Assembly (NCBI GenBank): GCA_944349335.1
Contig: CALVMW010000001.1
Location: forward strand, 1-64,000
Source of the DNA: an uncultured Bacilli bacterium
Lineage (GTDB): Bacteria; Bacillota_I; Bacilli_A; RFN20; CAG-288
Length of the DNA stretch: 64,000 bases
Direction: 5' to 3'
This document shows positions 23,450 to 27,708 of the stretch, one piece after another; the stretch's first letter is position 1; each line of letters starts with the position of its first letter. A program made the position numbers and the translations under genes. Under the pieces are notes generated by a model. The model was not told the origin of the DNA. It searched no databases and saw only the letters and a program-made list of their open reading frames with translations.

Positions 23450-24634
23450 ATGAGATTTCTTGATAATGACTCTAGTTACTCCCTCGTAGCAGATTTTAAT
23501 CTCAGTATGAATGATGAAGAAGTTTTATTGCTTCTCTATTTGCCGATGATGGGTGGTAAAGCCTATTCTCTTTATCGCTATTTTTTATCTTCGAGTCTAT
23601 TAAAAGAAGAAGAATATTCTTTTTTAACAATAGACCTTCTTTCGGATTTAGATTATGATCAAGAAACCTTTTTAGATTCACTTCGTCGACTTGAAGCTTT
23701 AGGTTTGATCGAAACTTTTTATCGTCAAGCAAGCCAAAATAAAGATAGTCATTATATATATAAGCTTTTCCCGCCTGCCACTCCTCGAAAATTCTTCGAT
23801 GATATTATCTTATCATCCCTTTTAAAGAAGATGGTCGGCGAAAAGAGGATGGCACGCTTAAAAATGATCTTTTTAAAAGCTAAGGATAAAAAACCTAAAG
23901 GTTATAGCGAATTAACTTCTTCTTTTAAAGAGGTATTTTCTTTAGAAGATATCGAAAAAGAAGAAGATAGTGAAATGATAAAAGATAAGAATTATAAAGC
24001 GATTGCGGAGATCGATTTAGCTACTTTAAAGAAAGCTTTAAAAGATAGGAAAATACCTTTATCAATATTTAGTAAAAATATAAAAGATGTCAGAGATTTA
24101 ATCGCATTATACATGATTCCTTTAAATGAAGGAGTGGAAATTATTGAAAAAAACATTGATAGTGCCGGTGTTTTTTATTTCGAGGAATTTAAAAAGGATA
24201 TTCGTTCGTATCGTTCATATTTAAGGGATGATAATAAAAAAGATGATAATTATAAAGGCGGTAAATTCTATCAGATATTGACTACTATCTCTCCAGAACA
24301 ATATCTCTCTATTAGACTTAATGCTAAAGCTCCCGCATACATGTTAGATGAAATTGAAAAGATTAAAAAGGAAACTGGATTACCAAATGCTTTAATCAAC
24401 GTTGTTTTAGATTACTCATTTAGAAAGACTGATAATCGTTTTGTAGAATTGTATATAGAGAAGGTTGCTTATTCTATTCTTTCCAATAATATAACTTCAC
24501 CATATGAAGCGATGACTTTCTTAAATGAACAGGATTATCGTATGAAAAATGAAAAGAAAGTAAAGGTAGATAATAAAGGCGAGGAGAAAGATGATATCGA
24601 TGTAAAGTCTCTCCTTGATAAGGTGATATCATGA
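23450..24634 (+). CDS. dnaB: Replication initiation protein DnaB (Bacilli type)
   Basis: DnaB of Bacilli (not the helicase) works with DnaD and DnaI to load the replicative helicase at oriC. The 394-residue product begins with a winged-helix-like domain (about 1-110) containing LLLYLPMMGGKAYSLYRYF, matching the family's ply-x-x-hiG-x-x-A-x-x-LY pattern, and ends with a DnaD/DnaB C-terminal domain (about 285-360: LPNALINVVLDYSFRKTDNR). The tail is charged. A candidate extended -10 (TGTTATCAT, 23403-23411) precedes it. The stop overlaps the dnaI start (ATGA). This dnaB-dnaI pair is typical of Bacilli. Confidence 0.85.
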   Translation: MRFLDNDSSYSLVADFNLSMNDEEVLLLLYLPMMGGKAYSLYRYFLSSSLLKEEEYSFLTIDLLSDLDYDQETFLDSLRRLEALGLIETFYRQASQNKDSHYIYKLFPPATPRKFFDDIILSSLLKKMVGEKRMARLKMIFLKAKDKKPKGYSELTSSFKEVFSLEDIEKEEDSEMIKDKNYKAIAEIDLATLKKALKDRKIPLSIFSKNIKDVRDLIALYMIPLNEGVEIIEKNIDSAGVFYFEEFKKDIRSYRSYLRDDNKKDDNYKGGKFYQILTTISPEQYLSIRLNAKAPAYMLDEIEKIKKETGLPNALINVVLDYSFRKTDNRFVELYIEKVAYSILSNNITSPYEAMTFLNEQDYRMKNEKKVKVDNKGEEKDDIDVKSLLDKVIS

Positions 24635-25587
24635 GCGATAACTTTAGCATTCATAAGATTACTTTTAATAAGAAGATTGAGTTAGATAGTGAATCATCAA
24701 ATCGTTTTGAAACTCAAGTAAAGGAGTTATTAAAAAAGTATCCATTAGCAAATAGAGCTATAAAAGACCTTTTGAAAACTGAAAAAACATTTAATAACTC
24801 ACTCGGTTATATATATGAATTTTTAGAAGATTATGCTATTTGTAATTCTTGTGAAAATAAATTAAATCTGTGCCCTAAAAAGAGAGTGGGTTTTAAATAT
24901 GAGCCTTATTATGATGAATATCAAGATATTATTCGCTTAAATGTCACTCCTTGTGTTCATTTAAAGTTAGTTGAAAGTATTTTAAAAAATATTGATCAAA
25001 GTTATGAGAATAAGAATTTAATTTATAAAGAAGGTATTTTATTTGCTAAAAGATTAAGAGAATATTCTAATAAATCTACTCTTTTAATTACCTTTAAAAA
25101 ATTTGTTAGAGATTTAAATTCTTTAAAAGAAAATAAAACTATTAAAGGTCAAGCACTTTTCTTTATCAACGGTGAAAAGATAGAACAATCATTTTCATAT
25201 TTTTTAGTTTACTATGCTGCCTCATTAGGAATTAAATCTTCGCTTATAACTTTTGTGGACTTCTTAAAAGATTTAAATAGTGAGAAATTTGAAGATCAAA
25301 ATTATATGAAAAGATATGTAGAGCATTTAAAATATTGTCCATTTACTATATTTGAGAATATTGATTGTTTCCCTACTATCAGTGATAAAACGATGATGAA
25401 TCATCTTATCCCTTTATTCCAATATCGTAAAAATAAAGGCTTACTTACTTATTGCACTTTATCAACTTCTTCTTCTCTTCTTACTATAGGTAAAAAGATA
25501 GGCCATTATAGTGAAACGGGTACAAAATTAGGTGAGATTTTTACTTCACTATTTGAAAAACAAAAGATAACAGACCTCGATATATAA
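24631..25587 (+). CDS. dnaI: DnaI-like helicase loader with lost P-loop
   Basis: DnaI is an AAA+ ATPase that loads the replicative helicase. The N-terminal zinc-binding domain is recognisable (Cys71, Cys74, Cys81, then Cys108/His110), and position after dnaB is standard. The C-terminal domain aligns by order with DnaI, but the Walker A segment reads NGEKIEQS (180-187) instead of GxxGxGKT, and Walker B reads FTIFENIDC (238-246) instead of LMLDDIG. ATP binding is therefore unlikely. The frame is intact over 318 residues, so this looks like a selected pseudo-ATPase, not a decaying gene. Start overlaps the dnaB stop. Confidence 0.78.
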   Translation: MSDNFSIHKITFNKKIELDSESSNRFETQVKELLKKYPLANRAIKDLLKTEKTFNNSLGYIYEFLEDYAICNSCENKLNLCPKKRVGFKYEPYYDEYQDIIRLNVTPCVHLKLVESILKNIDQSYENKNLIYKEGILFAKRLREYSNKSTLLITFKKFVRDLNSLKENKTIKGQALFFINGEKIEQSFSYFLVYYAASLGIKSSLITFVDFLKDLNSEKFEDQNYMKRYVEHLKYCPFTIFENIDCFPTISDKTMMNHLIPLFQYRKNKGLLTYCTLSTSSSLLTIGKKIGHYSETGTKLGEIFTSLFEKQKITDLDI

Positions 25588-25628: not shown

Positions 25629-26858
25629 ATGGTATATCAAAGCGATAAGAATCAATGTGGTAAAGCAGTAGTTAGAACTATTTTAGTTATTCATAATGAA
25701 GATGAAAATTTTCAAACATCTATACTAGAATCGGATTGCTCAAATTTTTTAGAGATAAGAGATGAATTAGAAAGAAATGGGCTTTTTTATTCTGGCTATG
25801 AAATTAAAAGGGTTGAGCTTATAGAAAAAAGAAAATTACCAGCCATCGCACAAATTAAAAACGGTGAAAAAGATCATTTTGTTGTCATAAAAAAGATAAC
25901 TAAGAAAAAAGTTAAAATATTTGACCCTGAATATGGCGACATCGATTTTAAACATGATGAATTTTTATCGATTTATAGTGGCAATATACTATTAAAAGAG
26001 CATGAAAGTGAAAAGAAAAAAGTTAAGAGATTATCCTTACTTAAAAGAAAAGAAAAATTATTGTATGGTTTAATCTTTTTAATTGAAACAATTTCTATGG
26101 CAGTATTTTTATTAACTTTAAATGAAAATATACCCTTATTTTCAATGATATCTTTATTTATGGCGATAATTGCTGTCTTTTTACAATTCATTTTAAACAC
26201 AAAAGTCAGGAAGAGGTTAAATAAAGAGATATTTATTCCTTACATGAATTTAACTAAAAATAAAGAGGATTTCTTTTCTCTTTCAAAAATTTTAGATCTT
26301 GAAGTTAAAAGATTTTCAAATATTGTTTCCTATAGTGTTTTACTATTGAACTTGCTATTTTTATTTACAGCCAATGGAATATACGTTTTTTTGATTGCAA
26401 TCGTCAGTTGTGTCTTAGTCCTTATCGAATTTATGACTAAAAAAGAAACTAATAAAGTTACTCGTTATTGTTCTATTAAAGAAGACACATATTTAAATAT
26501 GTTAAGTACTGATCCATTTAATGCTAGCAAGTATTTTATGCTCGCAAGTGAGAAGTCAAACAAACTGCTTTTAAATAAAGTGGTAATGACTATTTTTGAA
26601 ACAATTGTCTTAACTCTTTTTATTATCCTACAAATGTTTTTAGTCAACTCTTTCTCTATTGCCAATTTCCTCGTCCTTTTCTTTTTATCGTTTTCACTAA
26701 TTCGTGTCAGTAAGAGTGTTTTATCATCTTATTTAGATGAGAGTGAGGAAGTTAAAAAGATAAATTCACTTTCTTTTCCATTAGAGAAATTCTTTAGTAA
26801 TGATGCCCTTTTAAGTTATACTAATAATAGAGGTGGGCATTATGAAGAAAAAAAGTGA
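25629..26858 (+). CDS. C39-like peptidase fused to six-helix ABC-exporter-like membrane domain, no ATPase
   Basis: The 409-residue protein starts with a C39 cysteine peptidase domain (about 1-125): oxyanion Gln4, Cys10 in NQCGKA, His83 in DHFVV and Asp99 in FDPEYG, all in the order and spacing of bacteriocin-processing peptidases. Six membrane helices follow (about 144-164, 168-188, 231-247, 250-268, 318-338, 344-360), grouped as in an ABC exporter. The nucleotide-binding domain of peptidase-containing transporters is absent; only about 45 polar residues follow the last helix. No leader-peptide or bacteriocin gene is nearby. It sits in a core replication/translation cluster, in the place phoH often takes. 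Its Shine-Dalgarno is inside a hairpin. Confidence 0.7.
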   Translation: MVYQSDKNQCGKAVVRTILVIHNEDENFQTSILESDCSNFLEIRDELERNGLFYSGYEIKRVELIEKRKLPAIAQIKNGEKDHFVVIKKITKKKVKIFDPEYGDIDFKHDEFLSIYSGNILLKEHESEKKKVKRLSLLKRKEKLLYGLIFLIETISMAVFLLTLNENIPLFSMISLFMAIIAVFLQFILNTKVRKRLNKEIFIPYMNLTKNKEDFFSLSKILDLEVKRFSNIVSYSVLLLNLLFLFTANGIYVFLIAIVSCVLVLIEFMTKKETNKVTRYCSIKEDTYLNMLSTDPFNASKYFMLASEKSNKLLLNKVVMTIFETIVLTLFIILQMFLVNSFSIANFLVLFFLSFSLIRVSKSVLSSYLDESEEVKKINSLSFPLEKFFSNDALLSYTNNRGGHYEEKK

Positions 26859-27708
26859 GGTCACATTAGATTATTTAGATGAATGTCACTTAGATAAAAG
26901 TTTAGAGAAGATGTTTCTTTTAGTCGCTAGTGAGACTTTAGAAAGATTTTCTCTTGGCAAATGCACTATATCATTATCGTTGATCAGTGAAAATAAGATG
27001 CGAAATATGAATAAAAAGTATCGTAATATTGATAGAACGACTGATGTTCTATCTTTTGCTTACTTAGAAAATGATGATGAAATGAGCGATATTAAGGATC
27101 TTGGCTGTATTTTAATCGATCCTAAACGCGCCAAAAAACAAGCCGAAGAATTTTCTCATCCTTTTAAAAGAGAATTATCTTTTTTATTCATTCATGGTAT
27201 TCTTCATCTACTAGGTTATGATCATCAGAATGAGGAAGATAGTGAAAAGATGTTTGCACTCCAAAACGAAATCTTAAATAATTTAACTATCGATTTTTAT
27301 ACTGATCAAAAGAAATTAAAAAAAGAATTAAAAATCGCTCAATCGATGGCTATTACCCCTTATTCTCACTTTAATGTAGGTGCAGTATTGATCACAAAAA
27401 GCGGTGAATATATCCGTGGCTTTAATATTGAGAATTCTTCATATCCTGCGACTATATGTGCGGAAAGAGTAGCGATCTATTCAGCCTATTCTCGCGGTAA
27501 TAACAAAGATGACTTTGTCGCTATGGGCCTTATCACTTCTTCAAATGAAACTTCCACATGCTGCGGAGTTTGTCGACAAGTTATGATCGAATTATTACCA
27601 AGTTATATTCCTGTTTACATTTATAATGATAAAATGGATAAAATGCTGAGGCTCACTGTCAAAGATATGTTACCTTATGCGTTTACGGATGAAGATTTAA
27701 AGTCATGA
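26842..27708 (+). CDS. Fused endoribonuclease YbeY and cytidine deaminase
   Basis: A single 288-residue frame joins two enzymes usually encoded separately. Residues about 1-150 are YbeY, the metal-dependent endoribonuclease of rRNA maturation, with HGILHLLGYDH (H-x3-H-x5-H). Residues about 160-288 are cytidine deaminase, with the zinc motifs CAERVA and CCGVCRQ and the substrate loop FNIENSSYPATI. In Bacilli these genes are neighbours, ybeY-dgkA-cdd-era; here dgkA is missing and ybeY and cdd are joined. ATG 26842 has GAGGTGGG as Shine-Dalgarno; an upstream in-frame GTG would overlap it. The start overlaps the previous gene by 17 nt. Confidence 0.9.
   Translation: MKKKSEVTLDYLDECHLDKSLEKMFLLVASETLERFSLGKCTISLSLISENKMRNMNKKYRNIDRTTDVLSFAYLENDDEMSDIKDLGCILIDPKRAKKQAEEFSHPFKRELSFLFIHGILHLLGYDHQNEEDSEKMFALQNEILNNLTIDFYTDQKKLKKELKIAQSMAITPYSHFNVGAVLITKSGEYIRGFNIENSSYPATICAERVAIYSAYSRGNNKDDFVAMGLITSSNETSTCCGVCRQVMIELLPSYIPVYIYNDKMDKMLRLTVKDMLPYAFTDEDLKS

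Follow-up and report, generated by a model that had tools for sequence, protein, structure and literature searches.

A DnaI helicase loader homologue without ATPase motifs in a family of uncultured Bacilli

The window analysed here, a stretch of 64,000 nucleotides from the genome of an uncultured Bacilli bacterium, encodes a homologue of the helicase loader DnaI in which the catalytic motifs of the AAA+ domain have been replaced, and Walker A is absent from every readable DnaI gene of the family to which this bacterium belongs. The protein is probably the only DnaI recognisable in that family and now a pseudo-ATPase, confined to docking and delivering the helicase without an ATP switch. Helicase binding and loading are its putative functions, and ATP-independent delivery by the DnaI of this family, as we infer it, agrees with published in vitro work.

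Results

Full-length homology to DnaI

The ORF coordinates bear out what the original prediction had read from the window, namely that the gene (Table 1) holds the dnaI position after dnaB, with 318 open codons and the usual ATGA overlap, in which the dnaI start codon sits within the stop codon of the dnaB-like frame. The upstream product is DnaB-like according to NCBIfam NF053829 (9.4e-42, below the curated cut-off) and PF07261 (1.1e-5, above the cut-off), and in 67 of the 69 loci the dnaI start lies close to the end of a same-strand frame, counted whether or not it was recognised as DnaB. Directly behind dnaI, at 25629-26858 (+), stands a gene with a C39 peptidase domain (PF03412, 7.4e-18) and a hydrophobic remainder, in which no ABC ATPase domain was found; genes like it stand behind dnaI in many loci of the family. 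The frame at 26833-27708 (+), a single one of 291 residues, we take by its motifs to be YbeY-like and then cytidine deaminase-like, possibly a fusion.

Taken alone, the window DnaI has no useful match in Pfam, NCBIfam or the PDB sequence set, so that its identity had to be tested through relatives. Specifically, neither PF07319 (DnaI_N), which has no match anywhere in the window's genome, nor PF01695 recognises it. A profile restricted to Walker-less proteins of the family (A1, 17 members) matched Bacillus DnaI in 4m4w (4m4w_J; E 2.7e-20, positions 24-314). It also matched 2w58, the AAA+ domain of DnaI, at 5.3e-11 and 2k7r, its zinc domain, at 2.9e-6. An AlphaFold model computed on A1 (mean pLDDT 89.9, pTM 0.81) found DnaI chains as its best structural matches in Foldseek (2w58, E 2.5e-7), and VIA-align superposed it on 2w58 with Z 20.2 and rmsd 2.6 over 186/188 residues. 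These profile and structural matches make the window protein homologous to DnaI from end to end, and the proposal of a pseudo-AAA+ DnaI has good support from its fold, the profile, the synteny and the family-wide loss described below. An identity as the IS21 protein IstB was considered and rejected, given that the neighbours are dnaB and the C39-peptidase gene, with no istA, and that PF01695 does not match.

Alignment confirms that Walker A and Walker B have both been replaced: FINGEKIE takes the place of the relatives' GKPNTGKS, and FTIFENID that of VLVLDDLG (the NGEKIEQS originally named for Walker A is the FINGEKIE loop shifted by two residues). Also absent, as judged by eye, are sensor I, with no motif of the TSN/TSD type, and the arginine-finger segment, with no basic segment of the RxxQL type. 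A zinc-type site is predicted from four cysteines of the N-terminal domain, which are retained in the family rows of alignments A3 and A6. Of the Cys/His site first proposed, the cysteines therefore stood but the histidine did not, none being conserved in the lineage. The DnaI of one family genome, G018 (L013), has lost the zinc cysteines on top of Walker A and was for that reason omitted from A3.

Table 1. Features of the dnaB-dnaI locus in the window.
Feature	Position	Strand	Basis
dnaB co-loader gene, 394 aa, overlaps dnaI by ATGA	23450..24634	+	NF053829, PF07261
318-aa DnaI homologue, C-domain pseudo-AAA+	24631..25587	+	profile, fold model, gene order
N-terminal zinc-type helicase-binding domain (putative), residues 20-119	24688..24987	+	A1 profile positions 23-115 against 2k7r, E 2.9e-6
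Cysteines C71, C74, C81, C108	24841..24954 (codons 24841, 24850, 24871, 24952)	+	invariant in 18/18 A3 rows
C-terminal domain of AAA+ fold without catalytic motifs, residues 128-318	25012..25584	+	AlphaFold model; VIA-align Z 20.2 to DnaI 2w58
Former Walker A loop FINGEKIE (relatives GxxxxGK[ST]), residues 178-185	25162..25185	+	alignment
Former Walker B strand FTIFENID (relatives LxLDDxG)	25342..25365	+	alignment
Arg266	25426..25428	+	invariant in Walker-less and intact rows alike

Loss of Walker A across a family

Homologues were sought in 59 genomes, the window's own and 58 relatives. A protein search matched in 19 of them, and a profile search found a DnaI homologue in 20 of the 23 genomes of the window's family (f1). 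That profile search missed the Walker-less DnaI of G011, which lies behind dnaB (L290:2762-3718) and scores 57 bits against the family profile; in G007 and G016 (75% and 61% complete) neither dnaB nor dnaI was seen. In all, 69 DnaI proteins of the order were read and aligned. Within f1, Walker A is absent from 21 of 21 readable DnaI genes, drawn from four of the five genera, and this survey of relatives establishes that the loss is common to the whole family and not particular to the genome in which it was first noticed. Among other families of the order, Walker A is intact in every protein read of f2 (4/4), f3 (9/9), f4 (4/4) and f6 (1/1). In f8 it is lost in the three proteins read (G029 among them), with the Walker B aspartate kept in all three; in f5, 19 of the 30 read are intact (including G063), three have lost the motif (G026, G093 and G125) and eight (L124, L171, L178, L188, L189, L191, L194 and L195) carry arginine in place of the Walker A lysine (GR[ST]). 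These lysine-to-arginine proteins are possibly intermediate states. On a tree of helicase plus DnaA, f1 forms one clade (SH-aLRT 100) and the distribution of intact and non-intact loaders takes four changes, the rows labelled as lacking DnaI including genomes in which a DnaI was found but remained unread.

A DnaI match was present in all 132 genomes of the class outside the order, which include mycoplasma-like members with in-frame TGA that, together with the dnaB/dnaD/dnaI set, point to Bacilli as the class, and 77 of the 78 DnaI proteins read from them carry GxxxxGK[ST] and the Walker B aspartate. Set against the counts within the order, this proportion shows the P-loop to be seldom lost in the class as a whole, with the losses clustered in the window's order. 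The single exception, G207 (L370), belongs to another order of the class and represents an independent loss of the P-loop, which reads DEDSSRAT there in a DnaI that otherwise looks normal.

A fast-evolving domain under constraint

Rates were compared on one fixed topology for 29 genomes, each represented by a row for DnaA, for the helicase and for DnaI, four of 33 DnaA rows (G011, G016, G029 and G048) being omitted for want of an aligned DnaI row. Relative to DnaA, the subtree length of the N-domain is 2.85 in f1 against 2.00 in the rest, that of the C-domain is 3.48 against 1.62, and the C/N ratio is 1.22 against 0.81; by this comparison, the loss of the ATPase motifs went with an approximately twofold faster evolution of the C-domain. 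The pseudo-ATPase domain, though it changes at roughly double the rate seen in relatives, is still held by purifying selection. In the nearest pair, G004-G012, pN is 0.211 against a pS of 0.711, strong purifying selection on the C-domain as delimited by a split at 42% of codons, which is not the exact domain boundary. For G001-G010, dN is 0.68, dS 1.69 and dN/dS near 0.4, values that are rough because dS is near saturation in the pairs. The original prediction had named relatives with normal motifs, together with relaxed selection in this gene, as speaking against it: intact motifs are indeed found outside the family and the C-domain has accelerated, but the nearest pair is strongly constrained. 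A pseudogene was rejected, since none of the 21 family genes that could be read has an interrupted frame and pN lies far below pS in that pair.

The doubled rate of the C-domain and the dN/dS near 0.4 imply that part of its function may be fading. The best-surviving alternative to a docking and delivery factor is a protein reduced to an adaptor, still bound to the helicase, with loading passed to DnaB and DnaD or to a helicase that loads itself and the pseudo-AAA+ domain slowly decaying. Besides the longer C-domain subtree and the higher C/N ratio, this alternative would account for a low pairwise identity of the C-domain, 0.235 in f1 against 0.451 at a DnaA identity of 0.6-0.7 (44 pairs against only 3). 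We nevertheless think it unlikely, as the predicted fold is kept, the readable genes are all open and the two closest pairs preserve the C-domain better than the N-domain (identities of 0.721 versus 0.538 and 0.430 versus 0.403).

The pattern of replacement within the C-domain bears on a further alternative, that nucleotide is still bound through non-canonical residues and that ATP control has been altered, not lost. The retained AAA+ fold and the invariance of Arg266 in alignments A1, A2, A5 and A6 are what such binding would lead one to expect. However, the former P-loop varies in both length and sequence among f1 members, and in the window protein the Walker B acid, sensor I and the arginine-finger segment have gone as well, which makes this alternative improbable. 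Across the family, the first Walker B acid is D in four, E in four and another residue in 12 of 20 rows.

Search for another loader

A second, intact dnaI in the same genome had been named at the outset as the finding that would overturn the prediction. None was found in the window's own assembly (91.3% complete) with a profile of intact DnaI (A5) or with PF01695: A5 ranks the window dnaI first (2.0e-11) and DnaA next, followed by two weak P-loop matches, one of them a GTPase-like ORF of the window, and PF01695 matches DnaA only. Over the 23 family genomes, A5 returned the dnaB-linked genes, frames of the size and place of DnaA and IstB-type frames in G003, G013 and G020, and no second DnaI was recognised, a few weak P-loop frames being left unread. 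On this basis, a second intact DnaI was rejected as an explanation. Replacement by DciA was likewise rejected, since PF05258 matched in none of the 59 genomes, the window's own included, and in 7 of 14 control genomes.

Because the family genomes are 61-94% complete, an unseen loader could still exist, and a normal DnaI might be encoded elsewhere, in an unassembled part or by a phage or transposon gene, leaving the window copy as a relic or regulator. The incompleteness of the window's own assembly and the occurrence of IstB in some family genomes (adjoining istA in G003 and G013, and judged from the profile score alone in G006 and G020) lend this reading some room. Yet the Walker-less gene is present in 21 of 23 family genomes, the other two being those in which dnaB was not seen either, and the A5 search recognised no further DnaI; we give the reading a very low probability.

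The remaining initiation pathway

Apart from its loader, the window's genome retains the recognisable components of a pathway of the Bacillus subtilis type. A DnaB-type helicase is present in 58 of 59 genomes, the window's own encoding one on C1 at L296:3844-5307, and its Walker A is intact in 53 of 53 helicase rows (own row included); DnaD_N is found in 56 of 59, again including this genome, with some matches below the curated cut-off. The DnaA of the same genome has SKSGLGKT and LLVDDIQ, and GKT and the Walker B acids are kept in all 18 family genomes read, one of the genomes whose DnaA loci were fetched (G038) giving no DnaA match. General damage to AAA+ proteins was rejected on these DnaA and helicase counts. 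In all 18 family DnaA proteins read (L256 and others), the first glycine of the P-loop is replaced by serine.

The DnaB proteins of the family, that of the window among them, keep a charged linker followed by a short, helix-like C-terminal tail, as judged by eye (alignment A4 comprises 13 of the family's DnaB genes), and three of the four positions at which DnaI is reported to contact the DnaB tail have a hydrophobic consensus in the profile alignment to solved DnaI, also by eye. After a motif of the RxDYY type, the C-domain of the helicase contains a variable stretch of low complexity in f1, f5 and two f8 genomes. A link between this insert and loader erosion was considered; the insert is uneven in length and occurs beside intact loaders too. 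A new role for the protein, for instance as an inhibitor of the helicase or a checkpoint on it, would fit the fast divergence and the lost switch but is scarcely credible for the sole recognisable loader, encoded beside dnaB in an otherwise complete pathway in which no DciA was found.

Discussion

The purpose of ATP in DnaC and DnaI loaders is an open question, with delivery in its absence in vitro on one side and, on the other, ATPase motifs described as critical to the loader in Escherichia coli. In B. subtilis, the reported order of recruitment is DnaA, DnaD, DnaB, DnaI and helicase, and the DnaI C-domain is described as the docking site of the DnaB tail through hydrophobic contacts (PMC13326638). 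B. subtilis DnaI is reported to load helicase on single-stranded DNA without ATP, with a loader release of about 20% (PMC3791466). With Walker A and Walker B mutants of the Clostridioides difficile loader, helicase activity exceeded that obtained with the wild type; in the authors' suggestion, delivery does not call for the loader to bind or hydrolyse ATP, but binding or hydrolysis is partly responsible for locking (PMC5204125). By contrast, all DnaC ATPase mutants of E. coli are described as strongly compromised in activating unwinding when set against the wild type or the isolated helicase-binding domain (PMC8213410). Within the accessible parts of the open PMC literature, we recognised no report of a natural Walker-less DnaI or DnaC loader.

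Our results are most simply read as a family in which docking and delivery survive and the lock has been given up. Under this docking and delivery reading, the zinc domain would still grip the C-terminal ring of the helicase, the AAA+-shaped domain would serve as a docking body for the DnaB tail and perhaps also for DNA, and a relay of DnaA, DnaD, DnaB and DnaI would take the helicase to the origin. Hand-over would be driven by capture of single-stranded DNA, the ATPase of the helicase itself and primase, with no ATP switch in the loader; the part lost would be a lock or timer, and delivery would be retained. A natural loss of this kind suggests that helicase loading can dispense with its ATP step. 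For the broader proposition, that the whole family initiates replication with an ATP-free DnaI and that the loader ATPase is a dispensable lock and not the engine of loading, we see the chances as evenly balanced; it draws on the several occasions on which the ATPase has been lost or damaged in Bacilli (f1, f8, single f5 genomes and G207).

A natural clade without ATPase motifs, accompanied by close relatives that are intact and perhaps by half-way lysine-to-arginine forms, opens the question to comparative tests and to reconstitution. There is also a consequence for genomic surveys. Brezellec et al. surveyed DnaC and DnaI through PF01695 (PMC5109545), a model that misses the window DnaI and matched only two of the 19 members of alignment A2. 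Surveys based on PF01695 or PF07319 would score these bacteria as loader-free.

Compared with known systems, the window protein is closest to the DnaI of Bacillus, Geobacillus and Staphylococcus (2w58, 4m4w, 5he8 and 2k7r), with which it shares full-length homology, the zinc-type N-domain, the AAA+ fold and the linkage to dnaB, and from which it differs by the absence of Walker A, Walker B, sensor I and the arginine-finger segment and by escaping both Pfam models. The DnaI of G207 resembles it in having lost the P-loop but keeps the Walker B aspartate, a TSS resembling sensor I and, near the C-terminus, a basic segment, and the search gave a second match in G207. DciA, an ATP-independent loader, would be alike in working without loader ATP, but its fold differs from that of DnaI and it was found in none of the 59 genomes. 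Lambda P and other non-AAA+ phage loaders load helicase without a loader ATPase; they are not homologous, whereas in the window's family it is an AAA+ loader that has lost its ATPase. A functional parallel comes from the C. difficile loader CD3654, whose Walker A and Walker B mutants are likewise impaired in the use of ATP and are described as still delivering the helicase while no longer locking it (PMC5204125). Those are point mutants made in the laboratory; the state of the window's family is natural, complete and family-wide.
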